Below, piece by piece: positions 1,819-17,600 of a DNA stretch of 64,000 bases. How positions within the stretch are numbered: position 1 is the first letter of the stretch; every line of letters begins with the position of its first letter. The position numbers were made by a program, and so were the translations under genes. Source of the stretch: Butyrivibrio sp. AE2015 (GTDB lineage Bacteria > Bacillota > Clostridia > Lachnospirales > Lachnospiraceae); contig NZ_ATVR01000002.1 in the NCBI RefSeq assembly GCF_000420825.1, positions 1 to 64,000 on the forward strand, read 5' to 3'. The notes under the pieces were generated by a model. It was given only the letters and a program-made list of their open reading frames with translations. It ran no database searches and was not told where the DNA came from.

Positions 1819-1938
1819 CTCTTATTGCTCGTAGTCCGAAAAAACGGAATTGCACGCTCAGGTTGGCACCTTCCTGAATGATCAAGGGGTTGCCGTGGCT
1901 TCATAGGTCCTATGTACCTCCACCACTCTGAATAAGAG
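1819..1938 (-). promoter_or_regulatory. SAM-I (S-box) riboswitch aptamer upstream of metK
   Basis: Reading the minus strand from 1938, the P1 arm AATAAGAG pairs with CTCTTATT (1819-1826). Between them come the family landmarks in order: AGAGTGGTGGAGG, a CCTATGAAGCC segment, GGCAACC, and GGTGCCAACCTGAGC. These match the conserved core of the S-box aptamer, including the k-turn and the J3/4 region. With the terminator at 1754-1800 it forms a complete transcription-attenuation switch. A TACAAT hexamer (1947-1952, minus strand) just in front could be the -10 box, though I see no good -35. Confidence 0.95.
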
Positions 1939-3771: not shown

Positions 3772-5982
3772 TCACAGCTTCTGTCTTTCCACCATTTGAG
3801 CGAACTTGCCATTTTTAGCCATAAGCTGTTCATAGGTTCCCATTTCAGCAACATTTCCATCATCTATCATTATTATGCGATCACAATCTTTAATAGTAGA
3901 GAGTCGATGAGCTATTACTATTCTTGTGCACTTCAGTTCACTAAGGGAATCCGATACCACCTTCTGTGTAATGTTATCAAGTGCACTGGTCGCCTCATCA
4001 AACAAAAGAAGTTTGGGATTTCCCGCCAAAGCTCTGGCAATAATAATTCTTTGCTTCTGACCTCCTGATATACAGGATGCATTTTCATCCACGATTGTGT
4101 GCATCTTCATAGGCATGTTTTCAATATCATCAGCAATTCCAGCTTTTCGCGCCGCTTCCCAGGCCTCTTCCTCTGTCATTTGAGGATTAGCTATAGATAT
4201 GTTTTTAAAAATAGTGCCTGAAAACAGTCGGCTGTCCTGCATGACAACGCCATAACTTCTGCGAAGAGACTTTTTATCAATGCTCTTAATATTTACTCCG
4301 TTTATATAAATACTACCAAGAGTACACTGTTCAAATCCCAAAATGAGACGCATTATCGTGCTTTTTCCACAGCCACTCTTTCCAACTATGGCAACGTACT
4401 CTCCCTCTTTTATACTGAGATTCAGTTTCTTTATTACAAGAGGCAGGTTTTCCGCATATTTAAAAGAAACATTATCAAACTCTATTCTGTTTGGCACCAC
4501 GTGCTGCAGCTCATTGTTATCACTTTCTTCCGGCTTCTCCTCAAAAAGTATCTCCAAAGATTTTAGTATAGGTACTACCAGTGCTGCATTAGGAACTGTG
4601 TCCTGAAGCTGCGTAAAAACTCCCGTGAGCATACCGTAAACTGCAGTAAAAGCAATATAGTAATTCGTATACATCTGCATCTGATTTGCAGCAATGTAAG
4701 TAAAAAGAATTCCTATAAGTGAGACTGCATTTACCAGTACGTTACCATATACAACAATGAATCCGGGTCTGTACTCAGCTACTGCTTCCTGCTTAAATAT
4801 CTTGAGCCACTGAGTATATAATCTCCTTTCAGAAGATGTTACTTTAAGGGTCTGGATACCATTCATCATAGAAACCAAAATAGCATTATCTTTGGTTGCA
4901 TATTCAATCCTTCGGCTATTCACATCACTCTTTTTCCTGATTATCAGAAATGTCAGGCCAATATTAAGTATAGTAGTCACAGATGCCACTACAAACAGAT
5001 TTCCACCAAGATTATATATTTGGAAAATGTAAAAGATACTTAGAATAGTCATAAGACCGGTCGTAAAAACTCCGGTAATAAGACTCTCGCAAAGCATCGG
5101 GAATATCTGCATTCGCTTGGCTATGGCACCTGCTGAATGATTCTTGAAAAAATCTGTGGGGAGTGAAAGCATTCTTTCCATTGTCGCAGCTCTTGTGTCG
5201 CGATCTACCTTCGAAGCCATTCTGTAGATCATCTGCGACTGGACAGTCCTGAAAAGTGTCACAGAAAGAGATGTACACACCATAAATACAAGATAAGCAA
5301 TTATCGGAGTGGTGCTTTTATAATCATCAAGATTAAAGAACAAAGACCTGATAAGAAACGGGACTATAAGGCTCACAAGTATTGCAAATAGCCCAAGAAC
5401 AATGGCCATAACTATATCAGAAACAATCAAAGACTTCACCATAAACAAAAGAAGATCTTTGATACCAAGTTTCTTTTTCTCAAACTGGCGAAGAAAACAA
5501 ATTCCTGTTCTATCAAACTTATCTTCATTCTTTTTGGTAATCTTTACACTTTTTCCGCTTTTATAATCTACGTAGTGATAATTTCCTAATAAATTTGGAA
5601 TAGCAGCAAATATCCTCTTCTCATTGTCAGAAATGATCATTGGACCAAGTGCATTTTCCGACCACCCTTTTTTTAACTGAACCTCGTGGATACTCAGGCC
5701 TCTTTTATCAAAAAATCTGGTCAGAATATGTATCCTTTCTTCCTCGGTTTTACCGCTGAACTCTTCCGGGTCGACTCTTTCCGGTTTTCCGGAATATAAA
5801 AGAATCTGCTCCACAACATCCGCTGTTACAGATGAAAGATAGTTCCTTCCAAAGCCTGAAAATGCCTTCTTACCTTCAACCACTTCAGTAAGGCCTATGA
5901 GAGCGTCCGAAAGATTCTGCTCGTCTTCCTCTATTCTGTTAAACAGTAATTCAGTTTCCGTATTGAAACTTTTTGTGCTCAA
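3772..5982 (-). CDS. NHLM-type ABC exporter, permease/ATPase without peptidase
   Basis: One of two paired exporters for a leader-bearing peptide. The 736-residue chain has an N-terminal domain of about 170 residues without C39 catalytic residues, then five to six membrane helices (about 180-430) and a nucleotide-binding domain: Walker A VGKSGCGKST, signature SGGQKQR, Walker B LLLFDEATSALD and H-loop IAHRLST. This architecture matches the ABC2 member of NHLM bacteriocin export systems. The start is a TTG supported by a GAGGTG site five bases upstream; no ATG fits. It is the last gene of the RiPP operon, 33 bases after the peptidase-bearing partner. I infer the two form a heterodimer. Confidence 0.9.
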   Translation of the reverse strand: MSTKSFNTETELLFNRIEEDEQNLSDALIGLTEVVEGKKAFSGFGRNYLSSVTADVVEQILLYSGKPERVDPEEFSGKTEEERIHILTRFFDKRGLSIHEVQLKKGWSENALGPMIISDNEKRIFAAIPNLLGNYHYVDYKSGKSVKITKKNEDKFDRTGICFLRQFEKKKLGIKDLLLFMVKSLIVSDIVMAIVLGLFAILVSLIVPFLIRSLFFNLDDYKSTTPIIAYLVFMVCTSLSVTLFRTVQSQMIYRMASKVDRDTRAATMERMLSLPTDFFKNHSAGAIAKRMQIFPMLCESLITGVFTTGLMTILSIFYIFQIYNLGGNLFVVASVTTILNIGLTFLIIRKKSDVNSRRIEYATKDNAILVSMMNGIQTLKVTSSERRLYTQWLKIFKQEAVAEYRPGFIVVYGNVLVNAVSLIGILFTYIAANQMQMYTNYYIAFTAVYGMLTGVFTQLQDTVPNAALVVPILKSLEILFEEKPEESDNNELQHVVPNRIEFDNVSFKYAENLPLVIKKLNLSIKEGEYVAIVGKSGCGKSTIMRLILGFEQCTLGSIYINGVNIKSIDKKSLRRSYGVVMQDSRLFSGTIFKNISIANPQMTEEEAWEAARKAGIADDIENMPMKMHTIVDENASCISGGQKQRIIIARALAGNPKLLLFDEATSALDNITQKVVSDSLSELKCTRIVIAHRLSTIKDCDRIIMIDDGNVAEMGTYEQLMAKNGKFAQMVERQKL

Positions 5983-6015
5983 TATAACACCTCACATCAT
6001 CTGACCATTTAACTG

Positions 6016-8196
6016 TTAAACGCTTGTAACAAGGCTTGCATAATATGGGCAATGCTCCATCAGATACTCATGCCTGCCCCTGTCAACTATCACGCCCTTT
6101 TCAAGTACAATGATCTCATCGCAGTCACGTATAATAGATAAACGATGCGAAATTACCACTGTTGAAATATTCCTGTTATATATAGCTTTCATTACTCCGT
6201 ATTCTGTCTCAGCATCCAGCGCTGCAGTTGCCTCATCAAGAATGAGTATCCTTGGATTTCTTGCAAGAATTCTTGCAATAGACATGCGCTGTCTCTGACC
6301 TCCGGAGAAATTGGCTCCTCTTTCTTTAAGCTCAGCACTATATCCACCTTCACGCGAAAGAATGTCCTTATGTATCTTTACATCCCTTGCAGCCAGGATA
6401 ACATCATAGCTTTCAACCGTATCGTCATACATCCTGATATTATCTCCGATAGAACTCTCAAAAAAGGTAGTGTCCTGAGTAACATACCCTATACTTATGG
6501 CACGGATTTCTCTGGGAATATTCTCTATGTCAGTTCCATCAAGCATTATGCTCCCGCTCCATGGGGTCTGTAGTCCGGAAATAAGCTTAGCCACTGTACT
6601 CTTGCCACTTCCGGATCCGCCTACTATAGCTATGCTCTTACCTGCTTCAAGAACAAGTGAAAAATCCTTAAGAAGAGGCGGCAGCAACCTGTTGTAGCCA
6701 AAGGTTATATTTTTTAGTTCTAGTCTATCGCCAAGTTTGCGGTAGCTTTTCCCTTTCTCAATTTCATCCTTGCTGAGGTCATATTCCCTGCTATAGTGCA
6801 TGACGTCCTGAACACGCTCTGTTTCAGTCTTCATCTCTAAAAATACTTTCGAGACATTTTCTACTGACTTGGCAGGTGCACTAAACGAGGAAAGATACGC
6901 ATTAAAAGCAACCAGGATACCGATGGTCCAGTTCCCATGCATAACCCATATAGCGCCGATTATTATTACAATATTTGAAGTCAGCATCGAGATCATGTCC
7001 GGAATCTGACCAAATCTGACGGCAAGCTTTGACAGATTCATATTCTGCTCGGAGTAATCACCATAAATATCTGCCCAGTTCTGAAAAAAGTTATTCTCAA
7101 CACCTGATGATTTTATGGTCTCGATCATTTCAATTCCGCTTAGTGTGGCAACGTTTAATGCTGCTGTATTTTTAGCCATAACCCTTGTAATATTGGTTCT
7201 CTGATTAGAAATAGCTCTGGTGATAAAAAGATTGACGAGCACAGAAAAAATACCAATTCCAGCCAGCAAAGGGCTATAGCTCACCATCATAAGGGCATAG
7301 AACAAAAGCGACGCCACATCGAGGACTACCGGGGTAATATTATTTATTATATTGGTTGCAAGCTCCTGGTTTGAGTTATATCTTTCCAAAAGATCGCCAG
7401 TCATTCTCTGTTCATAAAAGCGACAGGGCAAACTCATAAGATGCCACACAAAAGTAGTACAAGCAGTAATAGACATCTTACCTTGAAGCTTTATCATATA
7501 AGCTGATTTTATCCACAGAGCAATGAGCTGTATGACAACAAGAGTTAAATACATTGTGTAAAAAAGCAATCCAACTGTAACACCGGACTTAACTAGTATC
7601 TGGTCCACAAAAAACCTGTCGATTCCCGGAAGGCACATATTAACAAGTGTCATGATAAGTGTGGTCAGAAGTACAAGCGCAACCATTTTGCCTGTGCCTT
7701 TAAGCTGATTTTTGACAAAATCGAAAATCGTGACCGGTCTGCCATAAGGCTCAAATTTGTCAGTAGGTTTAAGCGTCATACAAAAGCCTGAATACATTGC
7801 AATAAAGTCCTGCTCAGGCATTTTGATTATTCCTTTTGCCGGATTATTGATATATACAGCATTCTTTTTAAAGCCATTTAAAACGACAAAATGTCCTCCT
7901 TCAACAAAAACAATACAAGGAAACGAAGCCCTTTCCTTAAGCCTGTTATACTCCAGCTTAAATGCCTTTGCTTCAAATCCCTGATTCTGCGCCACAAGAT
8001 ACATGTTTTTAAGATTCGACCCATCCCTTGATACACCGCAGTCCTCACGGACTTTCTCTAAAGGAATGTACCTCCCATAATAGGCAAATATCATGGTAAG
8101 GCATGCTGCCCCGCACTCTACTGCCTCCATCTGCATAACTATCGGGACTCTTGCAACTCCTTTCGTCAAAGGACCTTTAACTTGTTTTATTCCCAT
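6016..8196 (-). CDS. NHLM-type peptidase/permease/ATPase (C39 exporter)
   Basis: Cuts the leader from modified precursors after Gly-Gly and exports the core. The 726-residue protein begins with a C39 peptidase domain (residues about 15-140): Gln22 and Cys28 in QMEAVECGAAC, and His102 in GGHFVVLNG. The third triad position, normally Asp before Pro, reads Asn118-Pro119. Membrane helices follow (about 165-440), then the ATPase with GGSGSGKST, SGGQRQR and ILILDEATAALD. Both precursors in this operon end their leaders with AGG, the expected cleavage site. It overlaps the upstream adaptor gene by 10 bases, which implies translational coupling. The Asn substitution may lower or alter the peptidase activity; the rest of the site is intact. 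Confidence 0.93.
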   Translation of the reverse strand: MGIKQVKGPLTKGVARVPIVMQMEAVECGAACLTMIFAYYGRYIPLEKVREDCGVSRDGSNLKNMYLVAQNQGFEAKAFKLEYNRLKERASFPCIVFVEGGHFVVLNGFKKNAVYINNPAKGIIKMPEQDFIAMYSGFCMTLKPTDKFEPYGRPVTIFDFVKNQLKGTGKMVALVLLTTLIMTLVNMCLPGIDRFFVDQILVKSGVTVGLLFYTMYLTLVVIQLIALWIKSAYMIKLQGKMSITACTTFVWHLMSLPCRFYEQRMTGDLLERYNSNQELATNIINNITPVVLDVASLLFYALMMVSYSPLLAGIGIFSVLVNLFITRAISNQRTNITRVMAKNTAALNVATLSGIEMIETIKSSGVENNFFQNWADIYGDYSEQNMNLSKLAVRFGQIPDMISMLTSNIVIIIGAIWVMHGNWTIGILVAFNAYLSSFSAPAKSVENVSKVFLEMKTETERVQDVMHYSREYDLSKDEIEKGKSYRKLGDRLELKNITFGYNRLLPPLLKDFSLVLEAGKSIAIVGGSGSGKSTVAKLISGLQTPWSGSIMLDGTDIENIPREIRAISIGYVTQDTTFFESSIGDNIRMYDDTVESYDVILAARDVKIHKDILSREGGYSAELKERGANFSGGQRQRMSIARILARNPRILILDEATAALDAETEYGVMKAIYNRNISTVVISHRLSIIRDCDEIIVLEKGVIVDRGRHEYLMEHCPYYASLVTSV

Positions 8197-8699
8197 TCTC
8201 CACCCCTATAGTTAAGAATATACTCACCAGGAGTTATCTCTCGTTCGATTATCTTGACGTCTTCAACACCATCGTGAAGTACTTCTTCAAGCTTGATGTC
8301 CACTCTGTAATACACCTCATTATCTCTGATCATCATCGCCTGGATGTTATAATCACCGACAGCCTCTGCAATATCCCTTATATTCATTCCATTGCCGTCA
8401 ATTCTTACTACTGTTCCGTTAGTACTGTTGCATATTACCTTCATCCCCGAATGGATATTCATTGCATCTGCATATTCTACCCAGCACATGACATCATCAT
8501 CGTCTACATAAGCCATTGTGGTAACTGATATTTCTATTTCTCCATATGCCGCCCAGTAAAAGAACCCTATGAGCAAAATAGTTATTGCAAGCAATATGCC
8601 CCACACAGAAGGTCTTACAGCGTGCATATATGCCCCAAGTTTTTCCGGTGACTTAAGGCGCACCTCTTCTCTTTTTTCACTGGCATTAATAGTATTCAT
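8187..8699 (-). CDS. Minimal HlyD-like membrane adaptor of the peptide exporter
   Basis: A 170-residue protein with one membrane helix (about 33-50, IVLLAITILLIGFFY-like stretch) after a charged cytoplasmic N-terminus, then a beta-rich extracytoplasmic part. The region around residues 75-105 (DAMNIHSGMKVICNSTNGTVVRIDG) resembles the barrel and lipoyl edge of HlyD-type adaptors of NHLM systems. It is much shorter than usual because the coiled-coil hairpin is missing. Ribosome site GAAGGAG lies nine bases before the ATG. Its position directly before the two exporter genes, with overlap, supports the role. Family membership is inferred from context plus weak motif resemblance. Confidence 0.7.
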   Translation of the reverse strand: MNTINASEKREEVRLKSPEKLGAYMHAVRPSVWGILLAITILLIGFFYWAAYGEIEISVTTMAYVDDDDVMCWVEYADAMNIHSGMKVICNSTNGTVVRIDGNGMNIRDIAEAVGDYNIQAMMIRDNEVYYRVDIKLEEVLHDGVEDVKIIEREITPGEYILNYRGGEWE

Positions 8700-8714
8700 A
8701 CAACATAGCTCCTT

Positions 8715-10472
8715 CTAAGCAATAAAGCTTACGTTAACCGGGACTCTTTTTAGCTTGATACCACCGTTTTCCTCACGCATCAGCATGAGTCTTGTAGGCT
8801 CCTTTACTACATTTCCGCTTCTTAAATAGGTCATGATATCATTGTCAAAATCCATAACCACAACCTCCTTTTTACCGGAAGCTGTATAATCAAACACTGC
8901 CTTTTCAAATCTAAACAGATCTGACCATCCATCATTGTGCTCATTATCCACTATTTTCTTAAGCACAATTTCAAGCTTATCAAGAAGCTCACTTTGAGTA
9001 ACAAGTTCATAATACTTAAAAAACAGCATTTCGAAGTCATCTTCGTACTTCTTATAAATATCATGTATCTCATATTTGTTCATGATCTGGTACAGGGTCA
9101 TGTAAAACCTTCCGGCAAACATGCTAAGCAGCATAACTACAGACTCAATATAGGGATACTTGATCCTCACCTCAGAATCGAAGGTGTAAAACTGAAGGAA
9201 AAGCTCTTTGTTCTGCCTTATGAGATCTTTACATCTTTTTCCACAAACTGCCCTGTTAAAAATACTTAAATCCACTTTTTCAAAGTCAAAATATGCTCTG
9301 TCTGCAATCTTATCTGCTTCCTCCGTTGCTGGAAGCGGAAAGAATTTGTGAAGCTGCACAGTTGCCTTTCCTGTTAAAAAGACCTTTCTTAGCATTGTAA
9401 GTGTCTTTTCATAATCTTCGATGGTTTCATCAGGATAGCCATAAATAAAAGAAACTGTGGGAACAATCCCCTGCCTAATCATGAAAGTTATCATATCCAT
9501 GGCATTATCAAGGTTCAGATTCTTTTTTATAACCTTCTGCATTCTCTCAGATCCGGTCTCAATGCCAAGATATATTTCAAGACACCCGGACCTTTTCATG
9601 AGCTCTATCACTTCATGGTCAAGAACATCTACTCTTGATGAACATCTCCATACATAGGGGCTGCCTTTTTCTATAAGTGAATTGCAAAAGCTGACCAGAT
9701 GCTTTCTGTTTGCAGTGAACATATCGTGCTGAATGGAAAAGCTGCGAATCCCATACATCTCATAGTATTTGTCCATTTCAGAAATCAGGACAGGAACGGG
9801 CTTAACACGAAACTGCCTTTTCCAGAACCTGGAAGTGGAGCAAAAGGTGCACTGAAACGGACACCCTCTTCCTCCCTCTATCATTACTCTTGCATCTTTA
9901 TGTTTAAGAATTTCTCCCAGATCGTACTGGGTGTAATTAGTTAGCTCATCGTCAGCTAAAAGAGGTGCACATGGATTTTGCCTTATCTCATTTCCGTATC
10001 GATACGAAACTCCCGGAACAGATGAAAAATCTCTTTTACCAAAGATTTCATCCATAAGGGGCAATATGCTCTTTTCAGACTCGCCCAGGCATATGAGGTC
10101 TACAAAATCAAAGGTCTCAAGGCATTCTTTGGCGGTTAGCGTCGCATGGGGACCGCCATAGAAAATAAATATGTCTCTGTTTCTTTTCCTTATAACCTCT
10201 GATACCGCCACCACCATATGAAAGGTGTTGCATATTGTATAAAAGCCCACGACCTCCGGCTTCTTTTCAAGGATTACCTCCGCCATTTCGTCGATAAGAT
10301 CATCAGGGGTTTTGTTAATGTCAAACTCACCTTTTGCAACGAGATTGTCAAAGCTCAAAATCTCCGTGTCATACTTTTCTGAAATGATGTTCTTTAATAT
10401 GATCTGTCCAATATGCGGCGTGGCGTTTCCTGACTTGGTAAGCTCCATTCCGTTTACAAATAAGACTTCCAT
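8715..10472 (-). CDS. B12-binding-domain radical SAM protein (class B-like)
   Basis: A 585-residue protein with an N-terminal Rossmann-like cobalamin-binding domain (about 1-140; GFYTICNTFHMV and FYGGPHAT segments) and a radical-SAM barrel whose cluster motif is CPFQCTFC (about 204-211), followed by the SAM-binding segment EIYLGIETGS. The C-terminal about 180 residues are not recognised. Such enzymes commonly methylate unactivated carbons, but others catalyse ring contractions or other rearrangements, so the reaction cannot be named. Its start overlaps the YcaO stop (TAATG), placing it firmly in the RiPP operon; precursor peptide is the likely substrate. Confidence 0.88.
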   Translation of the reverse strand: MEVLFVNGMELTKSGNATPHIGQIILKNIISEKYDTEILSFDNLVAKGEFDINKTPDDLIDEMAEVILEKKPEVVGFYTICNTFHMVVAVSEVIRKRNRDIFIFYGGPHATLTAKECLETFDFVDLICLGESEKSILPLMDEIFGKRDFSSVPGVSYRYGNEIRQNPCAPLLADDELTNYTQYDLGEILKHKDARVMIEGGRGCPFQCTFCSTSRFWKRQFRVKPVPVLISEMDKYYEMYGIRSFSIQHDMFTANRKHLVSFCNSLIEKGSPYVWRCSSRVDVLDHEVIELMKRSGCLEIYLGIETGSERMQKVIKKNLNLDNAMDMITFMIRQGIVPTVSFIYGYPDETIEDYEKTLTMLRKVFLTGKATVQLHKFFPLPATEEADKIADRAYFDFEKVDLSIFNRAVCGKRCKDLIRQNKELFLQFYTFDSEVRIKYPYIESVVMLLSMFAGRFYMTLYQIMNKYEIHDIYKKYEDDFEMLFFKYYELVTQSELLDKLEIVLKKIVDNEHNDGWSDLFRFEKAVFDYTASGKKEVVVMDFDNDIMTYLRSGNVVKEPTRLMLMREENGGIKLKRVPVNVSFIA

Positions 10473-12190
10473 TAGTCTCCTCTGATTCCATTTTGTACCA
10501 ACATGTTCTCGGTCATACTTTCTATCAGCATCAGTTCCTGACGTCTTCTTACCTTTTGTAATTCCTCGTTCTCAGCCTCTTTCTTTGCAAAAAGCATGCT
10601 GCTTGTCAGGGCTGAATGATCAAACCAGTTCTTTAATGCCTCATTAGAAGGCCCATCCATTACTCTGAAGACCTGTTCATATATCTTTTCATCAAAGAAA
10701 AACTCTATAAGACTCTTTATTGTTTCCTTGTCCTTGGCGGACATTTCAAGCCTTAGATACTGCAAAAGACACTGTTCATGTCTTCCCTGTTCTCCCTCTA
10801 AAAATGAAGCGGCATTATTTTTATCCCCTGTCATGATTGCCAAAAGAGCTTTTAAAATACTGCATGGCAAGGGCATATCCCTCATATCGCTTCTTGCACA
10901 TACAGCGGACGAGTCGTCTGTTATGGCAAAAAGAATCTCTTTTGCCCTTTCAGCCTCAGTTACTTCCGATAATGCCGCAGCGCTGTGGACTATATCGCGG
11001 ATTTTCGAATACTGAAGATTTCTTTTTCCAAATTTAAATGGGAGGATTGATACCCCCGGCGCATAAATACGCACTGAATAAATACCTGCGTATTTATATT
11101 TTCTTATGTACACATCCCCTGAAAGTCCTAAGAGAATGTCTGTAAGGTGCTGAGTCCATTCGCTATTGCCTGTGTCCTTCTCTTCCCAGCTTTTATATTC
11201 CCATGATGGTTTCCCTGCAAAAAAGGCATCGGGAAGATCAGCACAGTCATTTCTAAATGAATCTGAGAGATTTCTAAATCCCAAAACATTGCCGCATTCC
11301 TGTGGCCAGGAGACCATGTACTGCCTCGTCTTTAAATCCTTCCATCCCTGGGCCATTTCCGTAAGGCATCTCTCCAGCGCGATCTCAAAGAGCGGATGTG
11401 AACCAAATCTTGAAGAATACTTCCCACTTTGCCTGTCTACCAGAACAACATTGATGACAGGAAGCTTTTTACCAAGGGATGCATCCCGCACTATAAGGCT
11501 GCATCCTGACTGTTTCTCTATATCAGTTATAAGATCTGCAAGACGTGGCACCCTCTCCCTGATCTCATCAATTGTTATCCGGGGCGGAGTCAGCTCTTTT
11601 AATATGATCTCAAACTTGGCATATCTCTCAATAACCTCGCACAAAGCCTGCGTTGCAGCCTCTTCCTGGGTATTGCCTGAGGCCATGCCGTTACTACCCG
11701 AAAGTATATTTAACAGGTCCTCTGGCATATAGACCTGCTGCCTTGTTTTCACACTATAATATGGGACAAAAGATACCTCTTCCTGCCCCGTATATTCTTT
11801 GACAAATTCCTCTTTGGAGTGGTCATCGGGATCACTTGAAGAATTTCGAAAATCTCTTGCAATATCCTCATTTTCCCAGATCTTAGACGCAGGAAATCTC
11901 TTTTCATCAGGCCATCTTTTGATGTTCTCGCTCCCAAGGCTTGTCCTGTACAAGGCCCGGTTCTGCAGCCTCTCAGCAGCTTCACCATAGGCACTTGCCA
12001 TGGCAAATTCTTTGCTGGCACCTTTTCCCCAGACCTGCCATCTGCAAACAGGGTCATATAAAAGGACGCTAAAAAGCTCATTTCCCGCCTTATACTCTTT
12101 TGTTTTTGTCTCTATTCCTATGGACTCGAAGGCATCTTTTACTATTCTTACAGTTTCCCCCGGGTCTCTTTCCTTACCTTTTCGAATCAT
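10472..12190 (-). CDS. YcaO protein of the E. coli YcaO type, in a RiPP operon
   Basis: YcaO enzymes use ATP to activate peptide backbone amides. The 572-residue chain shows GKGAS (55-59) and SAYGEAAER (66-74), then SNGMASGNT (166-174), EVIERY (185-190), and HPLFEIALERCLTEMAQG further on; these hold the ATP/Mg acidic residues. The C-terminal about 170 residues, with LKALLAIMTGDK and then helix-rich sequence, resemble the YcaO_C domain of E. coli YcaO (about 586 residues), which is linked to RimO and methylthiolation of ribosomal protein S12. It lacks the proline-rich C-terminus of azoline cyclodehydratases, and no ThiF-like E1 partner or TfuA is encoded nearby. Embedded between a PP-loop ATPase and a B12 radical-SAM gene. 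Likely makes a thioamide, amidine or other backbone change; the product is unknown. Confidence 0.9.
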   Translation of the reverse strand: MIRKGKERDPGETVRIVKDAFESIGIETKTKEYKAGNELFSVLLYDPVCRWQVWGKGASKEFAMASAYGEAAERLQNRALYRTSLGSENIKRWPDEKRFPASKIWENEDIARDFRNSSSDPDDHSKEEFVKEYTGQEEVSFVPYYSVKTRQQVYMPEDLLNILSGSNGMASGNTQEEAATQALCEVIERYAKFEIILKELTPPRITIDEIRERVPRLADLITDIEKQSGCSLIVRDASLGKKLPVINVVLVDRQSGKYSSRFGSHPLFEIALERCLTEMAQGWKDLKTRQYMVSWPQECGNVLGFRNLSDSFRNDCADLPDAFFAGKPSWEYKSWEEKDTGNSEWTQHLTDILLGLSGDVYIRKYKYAGIYSVRIYAPGVSILPFKFGKRNLQYSKIRDIVHSAAALSEVTEAERAKEILFAITDDSSAVCARSDMRDMPLPCSILKALLAIMTGDKNNAASFLEGEQGRHEQCLLQYLRLEMSAKDKETIKSLIEFFFDEKIYEQVFRVMDGPSNEALKNWFDHSALTSSMLFAKKEAENEELQKVRRRQELMLIESMTENMLVQNGIRGD

Positions 12191-12196
12191 CTTGTG

Positions 12197-12847
12197 TCAC
12201 CCTTCCAACAGAACATCGCTCATAGCTCTTCCACCACCTGCTATAGGCTCTTTAAACACCACCTTCATCGGAGCTTTGAATATTGGTCCGTCAACCGTGA
12301 TTGAATGATATTCACCATCTTCTCCGCAAACATCAATTTTCTTTTGCCTGAAATCTTCTATAAGTTCTTTGGTTATCTGCTTTCCTATATAAGACGGATC
12401 AAGATAATCTGTTTTAACGGCTTTAATTAAGAATTTATATCCTCTGTCAAGAACTTCATTTAGTATGCTTTCTGATGACTCATTCCACAGAGGGCATAAA
12501 AGCTCAATATTAAGACGCTCTGCCAGATGCCTGTTCCAGTCAGCCACATCCTCTCTGTAAATATCACCTGTGACCATGGCATCCGCATGATACTTTTCAA
12601 TGGCCTCTTTCAAGACATTGTACATATCGTCCTCGTTGTGAAGTTCGTCTGTTTCACAGAATATGACAGGTATTCCTAAAAGCTCCTCATACTTCTCATA
12701 AACATCCCTTCTGATGCCATGATTGTAGTTAAAGCCTCTTCTTGTAACCGTAGTAAAAAGAGCTACCGGCTCATGTCCCTGACGAATAAGTCTATCCAGA
12801 CATAAGGTACAATCTTTTCCCCCGCTGTAAGCCATTATAAATTTCAT
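12197..12847 (-). CDS. Dph6/DUF71-type PP-loop ATPase (amide ligase-like)
   Basis: A 216-residue member of the adenine-nucleotide alpha-hydrolase fold with PP-loop SGGKD at residues 8-12 and the family's C-terminal signature CGEDGEYH. The eukaryotic/archaeal relatives (Dph6) adenylate a carboxylate of diphthine and amidate it. Bacteria have no diphthamide, so another carboxyl substrate is needed. It lies 6 bases upstream of the YcaO gene and 9 bases downstream of a radical-SAM gene, all in one strand. I infer that it activates a carboxylate of the precursor (side chain or C-terminus) or supplies nitrogen or sulfur for YcaO chemistry. The fold assignment is firm, the substrate is a guess. Confidence 0.85.
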   Translation of the reverse strand: MKFIMAYSGGKDCTLCLDRLIRQGHEPVALFTTVTRRGFNYNHGIRRDVYEKYEELLGIPVIFCETDELHNEDDMYNVLKEAIEKYHADAMVTGDIYREDVADWNRHLAERLNIELLCPLWNESSESILNEVLDRGYKFLIKAVKTDYLDPSYIGKQITKELIEDFRQKKIDVCGEDGEYHSITVDGPIFKAPMKVVFKEPIAGGGRAMSDVLLEG

Positions 12848-12856
12848 TTAGTCCTC

Positions 12857-13981
12857 CTATCCAAGGGCTGCCAGGCTCTTTCCCAGCTGCACTGCTGCCT
12901 TTACTTTATTAAGATAACCTTCCTTAAAATAGGTACAAAAGTACCTGTCCTTACCATGAAGTCCAAACCCTTCAATTCCTGCGATGATGCGGCACCCTCC
13001 CATACAGGTCTTGAGATACCCACATTCTTTGCATTCCGGATTAAAACGCGCATGCTCGCTTAGTGTATACCCCATAAAGTTCATGTATCCCGAGGACTTT
13101 ATGGCTTTTTCTATCCCACCTTCGGATATCTTTTGCATGGACTCCCGTGCCTCTTTAACCCCGGCAATTCCCGCACAGGGAAGGAGTCTGTCATCCACAT
13201 ACAAAAAAGGAACTGTTTCTTCCTTGGCACACATTGCTTTATCACAGTCATCCACGTACATCTTAAAGCGCTCTACCGGTATATCCCATATTCCATTCTG
13301 GCCATCTCCATAGAAATATGCACTGAGAAATACTTTCATTTTGATGTTATCCACAAAATAAAAGGGGATATACTCACAAAATGCATCTAACACCTCAGAT
13401 GGGGTAAGCATTTTGAGCTGATTTCCTTTTAGGGCATTGCCTGCCATTATAAGAGGTGAAACCTTAAGAGAACTGCAGCCATACTCTTGCAGAGTTTTTA
13501 TACTCTCTCTTAGATTCTCTGCATTTCCTTTATAGAAGGTCATATCGCTTGCTGTCTCAAAGCCTTCCTCTCTGCAAAGATCAAATGCTGCCAGCGTCTT
13601 TTCTTTTGCCCCCTTAAAATTCCTCACAATATCATGCGTTTCATCACCGTCATAGCTGATGCTGAAGGTGGTTTCATTCCCAAAGTCTCTAAGCATGCCC
13701 AGGAGCTCTTTTGTTACTAGCGCTCCATTTGTGATTATTCCGGTCACTTTAATGTCAGCATCAAAAAGTGCTCTCAAAAGCTGTCCCAAATCTTTTCTGA
13801 TAAGAGGCTCTCCTCCTGTCAGAACCACCTTCTTGATCCCATAATCCTTAAAGTATTCAATATCAGATAAAAGGCGGGAAATATCCGGTTCAGTTCTGTT
13901 ATCTTCACCAAGATAACAGTGGCTGCAGTGATAGTTGCAGTTGCCCGTTATCATCCATTGCACAACATCCACATTTCCCAT
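12857..13981 (-). CDS. Radical SAM/SPASM peptide-modifying enzyme (third)
   Basis: A 374-residue radical-SAM protein: cluster motif CNYHCSHC near residues 14-21, LTGGEPL at about 54-60, and a C-terminal SPASM domain with Cys in DDCDKAMC, LLPCAG, ECKECGYLKTCMGGC and FCTYF. SPASM enzymes place thioether or carbon-carbon bonds in peptides. Unlike its upstream neighbour it has no N-terminal recognition extension. The barrel shares phrases with that neighbour (SYDG..THD..RNFKGA versus SFDG..THDWIRNYKGA), so the two look like tandem paralogues. Only 4 bases separate the two genes. Substrate is presumed to be the precursors at 17 kb. Confidence 0.93.
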   Translation of the reverse strand: MGNVDVVQWMITGNCNYHCSHCYLGEDNRTEPDISRLLSDIEYFKDYGIKKVVLTGGEPLIRKDLGQLLRALFDADIKVTGIITNGALVTKELLGMLRDFGNETTFSISYDGDETHDIVRNFKGAKEKTLAAFDLCREEGFETASDMTFYKGNAENLRESIKTLQEYGCSSLKVSPLIMAGNALKGNQLKMLTPSEVLDAFCEYIPFYFVDNIKMKVFLSAYFYGDGQNGIWDIPVERFKMYVDDCDKAMCAKEETVPFLYVDDRLLPCAGIAGVKEARESMQKISEGGIEKAIKSSGYMNFMGYTLSEHARFNPECKECGYLKTCMGGCRIIAGIEGFGLHGKDRYFCTYFKEGYLNKVKAAVQLGKSLAALG

Positions 13982-13985
13982 CAGG

Positions 13986-15419
13986 CTATTCCTCTAATAT
14001 CTTTAGAAGTTTCTCGTAGTAACCCTTTTTGTAAAAAGTACATGTTAAAGGCGCCGGAAGTTTTATATCAATATCGCAGTTCTCAAAGGTATATCCGTTT
14101 GCAACTGCCTTATAGAGCATTCCGCACACACGACAGTTTCCGCCATGGCACCTTTCTTCCCAGTCGCAGCCTTTACAGTCTTTTGAATGTTCTATTACTT
14201 CTTCCGAAGTCATTCTCATAATTTCCGAATAATGCGAATCATTAATGATGTCTCTAAGGGGTCTTTTTAGAATATTGGAATCCTCTCCAAGCCATCCTGT
14301 CTGAAGTGCAACGCCTTCGCAGCCATCACATGGGAATACCATTCCTGTAGATGATACATAAAGATCATTTATCGCTTTAAAGCACCAGGCAGAATTTTTG
14401 ATATCCTCCGATTCATATCTGTATGGAGATCCGCTTTTTAGCGCCTCTGCTGTTATGCCTTTTGTAAGTGTCGGGCCGTTAAACCAGACGATCTCAAGAT
14501 CTTTTTTATTCTCCTGTCTGATACTTGACATTACCTCAAGCATTACCGTCCAATAATCCTCTGCTGACAAACTTCCATATCCGCTCCTTATCCACTTTGG
14601 GCCTTCACTGGTCCTTATGAAAAAGATAGATCGTATTCCCAGATCATAGAGATAGTGGGCAGTTTCAGGGAGTCTCTCTGCCGTCTTGGAATTCACATTG
14701 ACATTGGCCTTCACCTCAAAGCCGCTATCCAGTGCAAATGCTATGGATTCCTCCGCTTTTTTTTGGGCTCCCTTATAATTTCGTATCCAGTCATGAGTTC
14801 CCACACCATCAAAGCTTATTACAATCTGCGGATTTAAACCGTTTTCTTTAAGGCTTTTTACTATCCTTTCATCAAGAAACATTCCATTTGTGTAAAGGCG
14901 GAACATTTCCATATTCCTGTCTGCCATGGCCTTTATGATATCTGTAAAATCAGAGCGAAGAAGTGGCTCTCCTCCTGTTATTGTGAGCTTTCTGATACCA
15001 CAGTCTTTATACTGGTCAAGAATATAAGTTATCTGGTCAAAAGAAAATTCAAAGGGAACTTTCCCATATTCGGTAGCGGAAAAGCAGTGGATACAGTTTA
15101 AATTGCACCTTCCTGTCACACTAAAAAAACCGCGAGGAATACGCCTGTTATCAAAGTGCTTATACTTCTGCCAGGTTTCAATTTCTTTTGGTTTGTTCGT
15201 CTTTTCAAGGACTCCCATTTCCATATATTTTTTTATAACCTGCTCTTGCCTGCTGCCTTCTTCGATTTCAATATCAGTTACCCCATCGCATTTATTCAGA
15301 AGATCAAAGAGCGGAAATGTAAGTCTGTATGGAAGGTCCAGTTCACCGGACTTTTCAAGTAGCATAAGATCTTTTTGGTAACCTCTTAGGCACCATGGTT
15401 GTTTTAAGCCAAAAAACAT
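13986..15419 (-). CDS. Radical SAM/SPASM peptide-modifying enzyme (second)
   Basis: A 477-residue protein: an N-terminal about 100 residues with FDLLNKCDGVTDIEI, reminiscent of a PqqD-like peptide-recognition winged helix, then the radical-SAM motif CNLNCIHC and ITGGEPLL, and a Cys-rich SPASM tail (FPCDGCEG, CKGCDWEERCHGGNCRVC, CTFYKKGY). It is a paralogue of the shorter third enzyme and lies between it and the first. The presence of a recognition-like domain here and in the first enzyme, but not in the third, suggests that the third may borrow leader recognition from a partner. Assignment as radical SAM/SPASM is secure; the reaction is not known. Confidence 0.93.
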   Translation of the reverse strand: MFFGLKQPWCLRGYQKDLMLLEKSGELDLPYRLTFPLFDLLNKCDGVTDIEIEEGSRQEQVIKKYMEMGVLEKTNKPKEIETWQKYKHFDNRRIPRGFFSVTGRCNLNCIHCFSATEYGKVPFEFSFDQITYILDQYKDCGIRKLTITGGEPLLRSDFTDIIKAMADRNMEMFRLYTNGMFLDERIVKSLKENGLNPQIVISFDGVGTHDWIRNYKGAQKKAEESIAFALDSGFEVKANVNVNSKTAERLPETAHYLYDLGIRSIFFIRTSEGPKWIRSGYGSLSAEDYWTVMLEVMSSIRQENKKDLEIVWFNGPTLTKGITAEALKSGSPYRYESEDIKNSAWCFKAINDLYVSSTGMVFPCDGCEGVALQTGWLGEDSNILKRPLRDIINDSHYSEIMRMTSEEVIEHSKDCKGCDWEERCHGGNCRVCGMLYKAVANGYTFENCDIDIKLPAPLTCTFYKKGYYEKLLKILEE

Positions 15420-15436
15420 CTATCCTCCCTGAAGGA

Positions 15437-16957
15437 TCACCTGAAAATCCTTTCATATCTGTTAAGGTACTTCTTTAAGATTTTCTGAGCTTCGAGCTGC
15501 GACATTGTGGATAAAAGAAGCTCTTTTTCTTCATCTGTAATGTTCAAAAGAAGGTCGTACCAGCTTCCGGATAGCTCTTTTTCTCCGCTTTCTTTATATT
15601 TTTTGCTGCAAATATAAGGAACAACCTCTTCGAAGGCTTCTTTAAAGGTTCCGCAGAATCCTTTGTTCATAGTTCCATATGCGTGTTCGCTTTCAATGGC
15701 ACATCCACCGCCGCAAACCATCATCATTGGACAAGCTTCGCAGTCCTCAAGCCTGTCAGCTGTACGTCCTCTCCATTTGGGGAAATTAAGATCGAAGCGA
15801 AAACTCTTTGCTTCAAGATCAGTGTAACCTACTGTGTATTCCTCCATTGAAACCACATCCCAACAGGTATATAACTTGCCGTCAGGGTCTACTACAAGCA
15901 TATCTGACTCAGCTCCACAAGCTGCAGGACGAAGTGGGGGATATGTCTCTTTTGCAAGTGCACCTCCAACCCTTCTCGTGATCTGTCCATATAGCATGCA
16001 GTGCTGCAAAGCCGTTTTTTTATCTATACCTGATGCCTTCATGGTCTCATACATCTCAAGATCCGTTATGGCATTTTGTGGATCATCTTCAAAGCAGCCT
16101 ATTGTAGCTTTGAAATACCAGTAGAAATTCGGATACTCTAAGAATCCTCTTTTTTCAAACTCCTCTGGGAGCTTCATTACACTTTCTAAATTAGATCTGT
16201 TTATATTAGTTCTAAGATGAACCCGTATGCCCTTTTTGAGCACAAGGGAAATATTCTTCATTATTTTCTCATAACTGCCCTGACCACCGGCCAGATATCG
16301 CCTCTTGTCGTGAACTTCTCTCGGCCCATCGACAGTTATCTGAATAAAATCGAACCAGTCAGGTTCCAATATATCTATATACTCATCAAGGTCATATCCG
16401 TTTGTGACGCATATAAGCTTGATCTCTCTTTCATGACAGGCATTTATTATATACTCCACCTGCTTTTTGTTGGTTCTAAGAAGCGGCTCTCCGCCATATA
16501 AAAAGACATTTCTTATGCGCCTGCCCTGTCTTATATACTCATCAACCTGAGCAAATACCGCATCTAAAACCTCATCGCTCATTGAGTGTCCAAGCCACTC
16601 ATTACCTTTTTCAAGACGCTTACGCTCATAGCAGTAATCACATCTGAAATTACAGTTATAAGTTGGCATTATAACCAGATCAATAATGGACCTGTAGGGC
16701 AGAAGCCACCAGCACCTGGTCAAAAGAGAGGCGTTCTTTAGCTCCTCCTCATCTGACTCTTTTACCAGATGCCCCCTTTTCTTAAGTCTTTCAGAAAGCT
16801 CTTCATCAAGCCCCTGTCCTTCCGATTTAAGACTATCTATGCATGATAATGGAACAACGTCATAGGCTCCATAAACCCCATTTGCTAAAAGAGCCTTTCC
16901 TTCCACATCTTCAAATGGCAGGATCATGTCATACCTACTCAAGTGATAATTATCCAT
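15437..16957 (-). CDS. Radical SAM/SPASM peptide-modifying enzyme (first), Nif11-associated type
   Basis: A 506-residue protein with N-terminal about 95 residues (LANGVYGAYDVVP style) typical of radical-SAM enzymes that accompany Nif11-like precursors, cluster motif CNFRCDYC, LYGGEPLL and the SPASM domain (CGAESDML, YTCWDV, CEACPMMMVCGGGC, FCGTF). It is the first enzyme gene after the precursors. I prefer the ATG at 16957 to an in-frame ATG 12 bases earlier because GGGGG lies five bases before it. Likely installs thioether (Cys to alpha carbon) or other crosslinks; the specific bond cannot be read from sequence. A 12-base-pair hairpin lies between it and the precursors. Confidence 0.93.
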   Translation of the reverse strand: MDNYHLSRYDMILPFEDVEGKALLANGVYGAYDVVPLSCIDSLKSEGQGLDEELSERLKKRGHLVKESDEEELKNASLLTRCWWLLPYRSIIDLVIMPTYNCNFRCDYCYERKRLEKGNEWLGHSMSDEVLDAVFAQVDEYIRQGRRIRNVFLYGGEPLLRTNKKQVEYIINACHEREIKLICVTNGYDLDEYIDILEPDWFDFIQITVDGPREVHDKRRYLAGGQGSYEKIMKNISLVLKKGIRVHLRTNINRSNLESVMKLPEEFEKRGFLEYPNFYWYFKATIGCFEDDPQNAITDLEMYETMKASGIDKKTALQHCMLYGQITRRVGGALAKETYPPLRPAACGAESDMLVVDPDGKLYTCWDVVSMEEYTVGYTDLEAKSFRFDLNFPKWRGRTADRLEDCEACPMMMVCGGGCAIESEHAYGTMNKGFCGTFKEAFEEVVPYICSKKYKESGEKELSGSWYDLLLNITDEEKELLLSTMSQLEAQKILKKYLNRYERIFR

Positions 16958-16978
16958 TATGACCCCCATATACTAAGT

Positions 16979-17019
16979 AAACCCACATATTTATACATAT
17001 GTGGGTTTAGTTTTTTTTT
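16979..17019 (+). terminator. Hairpin with T-tract, plus-strand orientation, between precursors and enzymes
   Basis: A perfect 12-base-pair stem (AAACCCACATAT / ATATGTGGGTTT, loop TTATAC, 16979-17008) is followed on the plus strand by AG and nine T. All flanking genes run on the minus strand, so as written it would stop antisense transcription. In the operon mRNA the same stem lies just upstream of the first radical-SAM start codon with no U-run behind it; it could serve as an RNA-processing or stability element separating abundant precursor message from enzyme message. Confidence 0.6.
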
Positions 17020-17034
17020 GAAATTATGTTCCCC

Positions 17035-17274
17035 TTAGAACAAACCGATGCCTACACAACCAAAAGACACTGCACCGGCACAAGGCTCGCCACCCGCAAT
17101 CTTCTCTGCGCTATCAAGACTTATTTCTTCACTTGAAAGCTGTGCTATGAATTTCTCCGCATCTTCAATTGGGAGATCTATAGACTCCGCTTTGCAAAGA
17201 TCAACAACTTCCTGCGCAGTTTTGCAAGTTGTAAGCTTCTGAAAAAGCTCTTTTGACACTTTGATTTCGCTCAT
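17035..17274 (-). CDS. RiPP precursor peptide 2 (Nif11-like leader, Gly-Gly site)
   Basis: A 79-residue peptide. The leader (1-62) has LFQKLTTCKTAQEVVDLCKA and ends AEKIAGG, the Nif11/NHLP-type pattern. Core EPCAGAVSFGCVGIGLF (63-79) has two Cys (65, 73) and a hydrophobic tail. It lies 30 bases after precursor 1 and 78 bases before the first radical-SAM gene. The start is the ATG at 17274, since AGAGG lies eight bases ahead; a GTG nine bases further upstream is in the same frame but overlaps the Shine-Dalgarno. Its core has little in common with precursor 1 beyond Cys and Gly, so one enzyme set may handle two substrates. Confidence 0.9.
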   Translation of the reverse strand: MSEIKVSKELFQKLTTCKTAQEVVDLCKAESIDLPIEDAEKFIAQLSSEEISLDSAEKIAGGEPCAGAVSFGCVGIGLF

Positions 17275-17304
17275 TTTTTGCACCTCTTATTCAAAAAACT
17301 AAAC

Positions 17305-17514
17305 TTAGCACTGTGCACAGACATTTCCACCGCATGCTCCACCTGCAATATCTGTCATATCATCGATGCTGAGCTCTCCATTTGAAAGCTGTGCAAAATA
17401 CTTCTCAGCTTCATCCTTAGCAAGTTCTATGCCCTCAGCCTTAGCAAGCTCTAAAAGCTCATCAACACTCTTACATTTTGCAGCCTTCTCAATCTGTTCC
17501 TTTGTAAAGTTCAT
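17305..17514 (-). CDS. RiPP precursor peptide 1 (Nif11-like leader, Cys-rich core)
   Basis: A 69-residue peptide if started at the ATG at 17514. An ATG six bases earlier leaves only one base to AAGGAGG, whereas the chosen one has a seven-base spacing. The leader (about 59 residues) contains VDELLELAKAEGIELAKDEA and ends DIAGG. Core is ACGGNVCAQC, ten residues with three Cys, and it ends on Cys. It is the promoter-proximal gene of the operon (TTGACA and TAGAAT at 17571-17600). The small, Gly/Cys-rich core suits thioether or carbon crosslinking by SPASM enzymes. No similar core comes to mind. Confidence 0.92.
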   Translation of the reverse strand: MNFTKEQIEKAAKCKSVDELLELAKAEGIELAKDEAEKYFAQLSNGELSIDDMTDIAGGACGGNVCAQC

Positions 17515-17570
17515 TGCCATACCTCCTTAAAAACATAACAGCTCATTTACGGTTGAAAGTTTATACGAAT

Positions 17571-17600
17571 ATTCTATTACGTGTGGAAAAAAGCTGTCAA
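17571..17600 (-). promoter_or_regulatory. Promoter of the RiPP operon
   Basis: On the minus strand, TTGACA (17600-17595) and TAGAAT (17576-17571) are separated by 18 bases, a good vegetative promoter about 55 bases before the first precursor start. The following ribosome site is AAGGAGG. Confidence 0.75.

Follow-up and report, generated by a model that had tools for sequence, protein, structure and literature searches.

What does an operon make that sets a YcaO enzyme, a PP-loop ATPase and four radical S-adenosylmethionine (radical-SAM) enzymes beside two small precursor genes? The question is raised by a locus of Butyrivibrio sp. AE2015 (genome 3.71 Mb), in which a single minus-strand operon runs from 17520 down to 3772 of the window, the whole 64,000-nucleotide stretch analysed here (NZ_ATVR01000002.1, positions 1 to 64,000, assembly GCF_000420825.1). 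It is an operon for ribosomally synthesized and post-translationally modified peptides (RiPPs) and so not categorically new; its enzyme set is a new combination. None of the titles and abstract openings listed from openly licensed papers describes this gene set, and a description elsewhere is possible. We lean slightly towards a self-contained RiPP pathway that combines radical crosslinking, C-methylation and thioamidation without TfuA. If its products are thioamidated, crosslinked and C-methylated, they would be densely modified RiPPs of an anaerobe. The most interesting aspect is the TfuA-free E. coli-type YcaO next to an unusual DUF71 protein. Published work is cited here from excerpts of the sources (PMC13063428, PMC8120280, PMC10635010 and PMC3541065).

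Eleven genes follow one another in the order precursor a, precursor b, rSAM1, rSAM2, rSAM3, DUF71, YcaO, B12 radical-SAM enzyme, HlyD-like protein, C39-ABC (ATP-binding cassette) exporter and second ABC exporter (ABC2). The gaps between them measure 4-65 bases and two pairs overlap, the YcaO and B12 enzyme genes by 1 base (TAATG) and the HlyD-like and C39 exporter genes by 10 bases; both overlaps had been named in the original prediction, which was made from the sequence alone. All eleven genes lay where it had placed them and Pfam and NCBIfam agreed on their families, finding radical-SAM domains in four proteins with a B12-binding domain in one of those four, YcaO at 186.3 bits, Diphthami_syn_2 (DUF71) at 118.7 bits, and the C39-ABC and second ABC exporters. 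That list had overlooked an upstream MacB/FtsX permease gene, with which the set comes to twelve genes and about 16 kb, and a recurrent hairpin. The features were as follows.

17643..20045, minus strand: MacB-PCD/FtsX double permease, 800 residues (PF12704, PF02687), conserved unit member
17571..17600, minus strand: sigma-70-like promoter TTGACA-18-TAGAAT before the precursors (11/12 matches)
17305..17520, minus strand: precursor a, 71 residues, Nif11-like leader, core ACGGNVCAQC (open reading frame (ORF), NCBIfam, alignment)
17035..17274, minus strand: precursor b, 79 residues from the ATG start, core EPCAGAVSFGCVGIGLF (ORF, Pfam, alignment)
16978..17009, minus strand: hairpin with a 13-bp stem between precursors and enzymes (folding energy)
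15437..16969, minus strand: rSAM1, radical-SAM/SPASM maturase, 510 residues (Pfam/NCBIfam)
13986..15419, minus strand: rSAM2, radical-SAM/SPASM enzyme, 477 residues (Pfam/NCBIfam)
12857..13981, minus strand: rSAM3, radical-SAM enzyme, 374 residues, SPASM-like Cys set (Pfam/NCBIfam)
12197..12847, minus strand: DUF71 PP-loop ATPase, 216 residues, His188-type, CxxC in the ATP loop (Pfam, alignment)
10472..12190, minus strand: E. coli-type YcaO, 572 residues (Pfam/NCBIfam, profile search)
8715..10472, minus strand: B12-binding radical-SAM enzyme, 585 residues (nearest NCBIfam model ApyD)
8187..8699, minus strand: short HlyD-like membrane adaptor, 170 residues (NCBIfam, sub-threshold)
6016..8196, minus strand: C39 peptidase-ABC exporter, NHLM ABC1-like (Pfam/NCBIfam)
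3772..5982, minus strand: second ABC exporter, NHLM ABC2-like (Pfam, position and similarity to the C39-ABC exporter)

The operon is conserved as a unit

A search of 79 Butyrivibrio genomes for the DUF71 protein at an E-value of 1e-15 or lower gave matches in three, AE2015, Butyrivibrio sp. Su6 (G473; 94%) and a further species, G424 (78%), always inside this operon, and the B12 radical-SAM protein (E 1e-60 or better) was found in the same three. YcaO was present in four genomes, three times inside the operon and in the fourth (G432) in another context. The stretches fetched from Su6 and G424 carried the full set in the same order from MacB to ABC2, so that it is present in all three species. 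The surroundings changed: upstream of the unit G424 has a 94-residue GroES-like and a 541-residue GroEL-size ORF (named by sequence and size) where AE2015 and Su6 have Tex, and homologs of the FGGY kinase and metK genes, which lie downstream in AE2015 and Su6, are absent from the stretch fetched from G424. As the same order is kept in three of 79 genomes, once with different flanks on both sides, we treat the roughly 16 kb as a conserved unit. The set had been put forward as unlike any known RiPP class, and no described class was matched by it. The MacB/FtsX protein and its counterpart at the same place in G424 share 58% identity even though the genes further upstream differ, and by this sequence comparison the permease gene belongs to the unit. 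The metK, FGGY kinase and Tex genes were rejected as members, being beside the unit in Su6 with no homolog in the fetched G424 stretches.

Between AE2015 and Su6 the nonsynonymous rate (dN) was below the synonymous rate (dS) in 12 of 12 genes (dN 0.01-0.10, dS 0.06-0.97), clearly so in 11, with the weakest contrast in the HlyD-like gene (0.03/0.06). Against G424, dS was 2.1 or above and mostly saturated. Outside the genus, the operon was found in no other genome of the family and phylum samples or of the best 80 of 594 stretches in a wider contig scan. In 397 family genomes YcaO (E 1e-20) was matched in five and DUF71 (E 1e-12) in six, both together only in the AE2015 genome, and of 398 genomes sampled from the phylum one, AE2015, had a YcaO match at E 1e-30. 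The contig scan was not exhaustive, because a locus at the 47% identity of G424 was absent from its best 80. A DUF71 homolog lay within the stretch of one of these 80 loci, that of Su6, many stretches ending at contig ends. A scan of viral contigs gave no relatives of DUF71, and a YcaO search of plasmids returned 25 records, all below 60% identity and several of chromosome size.

Divergence from Su6 was mosaic (L024/L110). The MacB/FtsX, rSAM2, HlyD-like and both ABC genes had dS of 0.06-0.19, the rSAM1, rSAM3, DUF71, YcaO and B12 radical-SAM genes 0.63-0.97, and the precursors 0.39 and 0.67; this uneven dS along the operon suggests recombination of segments. Downstream of the operon, a SAM riboswitch (RF00162, 75.1 bits, 1819-1938, minus strand) lies directly before metK (533-1723). 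This puts a source of SAM beside four radical-SAM genes, probably by chance, given that no homolog of metK lies in the stretch fetched from G424.

Two precursors with conserved cysteine-containing cores

Both precursors have leaders of 61-62 residues in AE2015 that end in a conserved GG site (AGG in six of six precursors of the three species), and the cores of 10 and 17 residues directly after GG were as originally called. The start of precursor b was set at ATG 17274, which both relatives share. Core a reads ACGGNVCAQC in AE2015 and ACCGNACAQC and ACAGNACAQC in the relatives; core b reads EPCAGAVSFGCVGIGLF in AE2015 and EPCAGAVSFGCVGLGIF and EPCVGAVSFGCVGIGIA in the relatives. Eight of 10 residues of core a and 13 of 17 of core b are invariant across the three species and every core cysteine of AE2015, three in core a and two in core b, is kept. 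Both cores open with [AP]-C-x-G. Core b has one Phe and a conserved Glu as its first residue, and neither core has a Tyr or Trp. The calculated [M+H]+ values of the unmodified cores a and b are 925.3325 and 1626.7655 in AE2015, and the values for Su6 are 943.2889 and 1626.7655.

A sequence similar to the TTGACA-18-TAGAAT promoter also precedes the Su6 and G424 precursors; promoter-like sites in the region numbered 7, with 8.8 expected from shuffles. Each of the three loci has a hairpin of at least 13 stem pairs in the interval that separates the precursors from rSAM1. Its sequence differs in G424, and the energies calculated for the three loci, with no shuffle control, are -18.1, -19.8 and -23.9 kcal/mol. 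An intrinsic terminator after the precursors was ruled out: in the terminator scan this hairpin had a T-tail only when read on the plus strand, and 3 terminator-like sites were found against 2.5 in shuffles. As there is no U-tail in the operon direction, the hairpin is more likely a stem for mRNA processing or stability than a terminator. One promoter would then yield the two precursors in excess over the enzymes, the hairpin after the second gene protecting or processing the precursor mRNA, and the leaders would guide the modifying enzymes to the cores.

The YcaO points to thioamidation without TfuA

The backbone chemistry of the YcaO had been left open, and its E. coli type now points to thioamidation without TfuA (PMC13063428). 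The E. coli enzyme makes a backbone thioamide on Met82 of ribosomal protein uL16, in vitro with Na2S, MgCl2 and ATP (PMC13063428; 2026), and its physiological sulfur source is given there as an open question. According to the same excerpt, E. coli is without a TfuA homologue and none lies near suspected uL16-modifying YcaOs. Of the solved structures, that of E. coli YcaO (4q84) ranked first for a profile built on six YcaOs, at 4e-86 and 293 bits; the next solved YcaO reached 71 bits. The invariant columns include ATP/Mg-type residues, whose roles in ATP and Mg binding we presume to hold here. Among them, the invariant Glu188 of the operon YcaO aligns with E. coli Glu202, the residue altered in the E202A variant used in PMC13063428. 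Pfam gave no match to the TfuA family for the 11 proteins of the operon or for the four genes that flank it most closely. Because E. coli YcaO forms a thioamide without TfuA, thioamidation of this kind is the best prediction for the operon YcaO by analogy; the enzyme would use ATP and sulfide to turn an amide of the peptide backbone into a thioamide. The two small candidate substrates would make the reaction and its sulfur supply testable on cores of 10 and 17 residues.

The operon YcaO differs from that of E. coli in scoring below the uL16-type family model, in lying in a precursor-exporter operon, in forming a deep clade of its own and in being less acidic. Its isoelectric point (pI) is 5.46, compared with a median of 4.63 for the 84 YcaO ORFs of the loci that were fetched and 5.8-8.2 for Nif11-associated cousins; a few less acidic members of the E. 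coli YcaO similarity group were reported in apparent RiPP contexts (PMC13063428). Thioamitide-type RiPPs likewise have a YcaO in a RiPP cluster and a predicted thioamide, but they pair it with TfuA, which this operon lacks, and the operon has Nif11-like precursors and four radical-SAM enzymes. Mining of TfuA-associated clusters has returned some with radical-SAM enzymes or Nif11-type precursors (PMC8120280).

The YcaO might instead form azolines from the core cysteines, as in linear azol(in)e-containing peptides and thiazole/oxazole-modified microcins (LAP/TOMM). The cores do contain cysteine and the YcaO family includes azoline cyclodehydratases, the operon protein scoring 70.5 of 219.25 bits with TIGR03604. 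However, the ThiF/E1-like partner and nitroreductase-type dehydrogenase of that chemistry were unmatched among the operon proteins (Pfam/NCBIfam), and the nearest solved YcaO, that of E. coli, is now a thioamide enzyme. We hold azoline formation to be doubtful.

The enzymes could also act on other substrates, the YcaO for example on uL16, and the cluster could be a loose neighbourhood. E. coli YcaO does act on uL16 (PMC13063428), and a quick tree places the three YcaOs of the operons in a separate deep clade whose sister is a mainly Pseudomonadota group (support 89). This is nevertheless very improbable given that only four of the 79 genus genomes have the YcaO, three of them in the operon, and that gene order is kept in three species, one with different flanks. 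Thioamidation of the cores remains our prediction for the YcaO.

The DUF71 protein is not Dph6

The gene just upstream of the YcaO encodes a DUF71 PP-loop ATPase that had been read as a Dph6-like, carboxylate-activating enzyme. The Dph6 signature is EGGE/D-x-E188 and that of a DUF71-B12 subgroup, which clusters with B12 transport genes and is predicted to act in B12 metabolism, is ENGEF/YH188 (PMC3541065). The AE2015 protein reads GEDGEYHS, with His rather than Glu at position 188, and its EDGEYH has D for N at the second place of ENGE[FY]H. The motif therefore rules out Dph6 identity and is of the DUF71-B12 type. An alignment and tree were made from 19 rows, 3 from the operons, 14 from the same phylum (190 residues or longer, three shorter fragments being dropped) and 2 solved archaeal chains. 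All 17 same-phylum rows, those of the operons included, have His at this position, and both archaeal chains have Glu there. The solved relatives found were 3rjz and 2d13; the sequence of 3rjz is also that of 3rk0 and 3rk1, structures of the Pyrococcus DUF71 that was modelled as Dph6 (PMC3541065).

A role in amidating a peptide carboxylate, either the C-terminus or Glu1 of core b, was the substance of the Dph6-like idea. The PP-loop ATP pyrophosphatase family, with the Pyrococcus protein among its solved members, and the conserved Glu at the start of core b are consistent with it. The missing EGGE/D-x-E188 and a score of only 101.6 of 197.3 bits with TIGR03679 are not, and we consider such amidation improbable.

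In the tree, three of the four further Lachnospiraceae DUF71s joined those of the operons in one group (support 97/97), in which the operon proteins have a long branch of their own (1.95). All three operon proteins carry SGGKDCTLC, a CxxC within the ATP loop; none of the 16 other rows has both cysteines and one has the first only. A tree neighbour from a Lachnospiraceae genome (G003; L119, 7378-8577) is a DUF71 fused to a CobA/BtuR adenosyltransferase (PF02572, 7.8e-55) and adjoins periplasmic-binding, FecCD and ABC genes. As a separate observation, such a gene fusion is evidence for the B12 role that has been predicted for DUF71-B12 proteins.

A B12-linked ancestry of the operon DUF71 is supported at the level of sequence. 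It differs from the DUF71-B12 subgroup, with which it shares the His188-type motif GExGEYH (PMC3541065), in its CxxC, its long branch and its setting: in each of the three loci it is surrounded by RiPP genes and not by B12 transport genes or cbiB, the AE2015 cbiB match being on another contig (C5). Routine salvage of B12 does not explain it adequately, because most of the genus handles cobamides without DUF71 (CbiB in 67, CbiZ in none and DUF71 in three of the 79 genomes). The protein could handle cobamide for the operon B12 enzyme, by salvage, remodelling or corrinoid amidation, and never touch the peptide, which would be compatible with the proposed pathway otherwise. The His188 motif (PMC3541065), the CobA/BtuR-fused relative and the B12 enzyme within the same operon favour this, against which stand the genus counts, the branch length and the CxxC absent from all 16 other rows; we regard it as a serious possibility that falls short of even. 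Delivery of sulfur to the YcaO is a tentative reading that we think somewhat unlikely. The fuller proposal, a dedicated sulfur partner of the TfuA-free YcaO with a B12-linked origin and a CxxC that carries sulfur, which would act alongside the B12 and SPASM radical enzymes on the two cores and define a new RiPP class, is unlikely in our view. In the proposed pathway the DUF71 protein would be a specific helper in one of these two ways, sulfur delivery or cobamide handling. The operon gives a family predicted for B12 metabolism (PMC3541065) a concrete pathway and, if the fuller proposal were true, there would be a new RiPP class with a new route for thioamide sulfur.

Four radical-SAM enzymes

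The CxxxCxxC motif is intact in all four radical-SAM enzymes of all three species. SPASM domains had been assigned to three of them. Two exceeded the cut-off, rSAM1 with TIGR04085 (57.1/27) and rSAM2 with PF13186 (21.6/21.5); rSAM3 has a C-terminal Cys set, with no SPASM model among the matches listed (25 of 61 NCBIfam families). The nearest models to rSAM1 are peptide maturases, several for Cys-rich precursors and some thioether-forming, and rSAM1 would crosslink the core cysteines. For rSAM2 and rSAM3 there was no informative nearest model among the 25 listed of 70 and 61, respectively; they may add further radical modifications. Ranthipeptides and sactipeptides are the comparison for rSAM1, with cores of three and two cysteines here and maturase scores below the family cut-offs.

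The nearest NCBIfam model to the B12 enzyme is ApyD (6.5e-97, residues 18-434 of 585), which methylates the C-beta of Tyr (PMC10635010). By this analogy, C-methylation of the cores is the default prediction for the enzyme. The aminopyruvatide pathway of ApyD differs from the operon, in which no MNIO or cytochrome P450 match was found among the proteins and the cores are without Tyr.

Elsewhere in the AE2015 genome (G000:C17; L153:3481-9638) a second Nif11-like ORF (8033-8386, 117 residues, one Cys after GG) lies about 3 kb from a paralog of rSAM2 (1.7e-70), with a group II/DRT-like reverse transcriptase between them and an RtcB-like protein near. This pairing is weak support for rSAM2 acting on Nif11-like leaders. 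PADLOC gave no sign of a defence system in the operon: the radical-SAM enzymes cross-matched its viperin-type models and other models of radical-SAM proteins, at best with 3.4e-17.

Export and self-protection

As the predicted last steps, the C39 exporter would cut behind the GG site and act together with the HlyD-like stub and the second ABC protein to export peptides of about 10 and 17 residues. The HlyD-like adaptor of the original prediction holds as a likeness, in a stub of 170 residues that scored 18.9 of 156.2 bits with TIGR03794. Likewise both ABC exporters are present, the C39-ABC one scoring below the NHLM cut-off. The second ABC exporter was scanned with Pfam only. The MacB/FtsX permease has no ATPase gene adjoining it, its neighbours being Tex and precursor a, and probably serves self-protection or export; in the proposed pathway it would give self-protection.

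Weighing the proposed pathway

The pathway rests on what was observed of the gene set and its conservation as a unit, the intact radical-SAM motifs, the invariant YcaO residues, the conserved cores and the DUF71 subgroup motif; its chemical steps and their order, recognition of the leaders, transcript processing and self-protection are predictions. A number of results count against the pathway as drawn. The Nif11 likeness of the precursors was borne out only below cut-off, precursor a scoring 20.9 of 32.3 bits with TIGR03798 and precursor b having no NCBIfam match and 17.4 of 23.8 bits (E 0.0055) with PF07862; for comparison, precursor b of G424 reached 22.5 of 23.8 bits. The rSAM1 scores were below cut-off for TIGR04463 (164.6 of 525 bits), CefB (159.5 of 600) and PapB (125.9 of 340). 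A Pfam search of two N-termini, those of rSAM1 and rSAM2, gave no match to a RiPP recognition element (RRE), and an AlphaFold2 model of rSAM1 from a 4-row alignment had a mean predicted local distance difference test (pLDDT) score of 48.3 and gives no evidence of an RRE. The B12 enzyme scored 325.5 of 750 bits with ApyD, and the Tyr that ApyD targets is absent from both cores. The YcaO scored 228.2 of 700 bits with the uL16-type equivalog NF040716 (YcaO_for_S12) and did not group with the Nif11-associated cousins in the quick tree (midpoint root, long-branch warnings). The pI argument is weak, as another YcaO (L033) has a pI of 5.59 and no other operon-protein relative in its stretch. The C39-ABC exporter scored 773.8 of 853.3 bits with TIGR03796 (NHLM_ABC1), and its C39 domain reads NNP in AE2015 and Su6 against NDP in G424 and G179/Robinsoniella. 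We take the Asp of NDP to be the third catalytic-triad residue, which may thus be Asn in AE2015 and Su6.

Related clusters with paired YcaOs

Clusters with two YcaOs and Nif11-type precursors were seen in Robinsoniella peoriensis (L008/L036), Peptococcaceae BICA1-7 (L041) and Bacillota JPNA (L031). They resemble the operon in their E. coli-type YcaO, Nif11-type precursors and radical-SAM genes, and the Robinsoniella cluster also shares the short HlyD-like protein and the pair of exporters. They differ in having paired YcaOs, a SAM methyltransferase and no DUF71 homolog, and the precursors printed for them have no Cys after GG. The L008 YcaO ends in a C-terminal CxxCxxC tail that is absent from the operon YcaO. 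These clusters possibly represent a further RiPP group.

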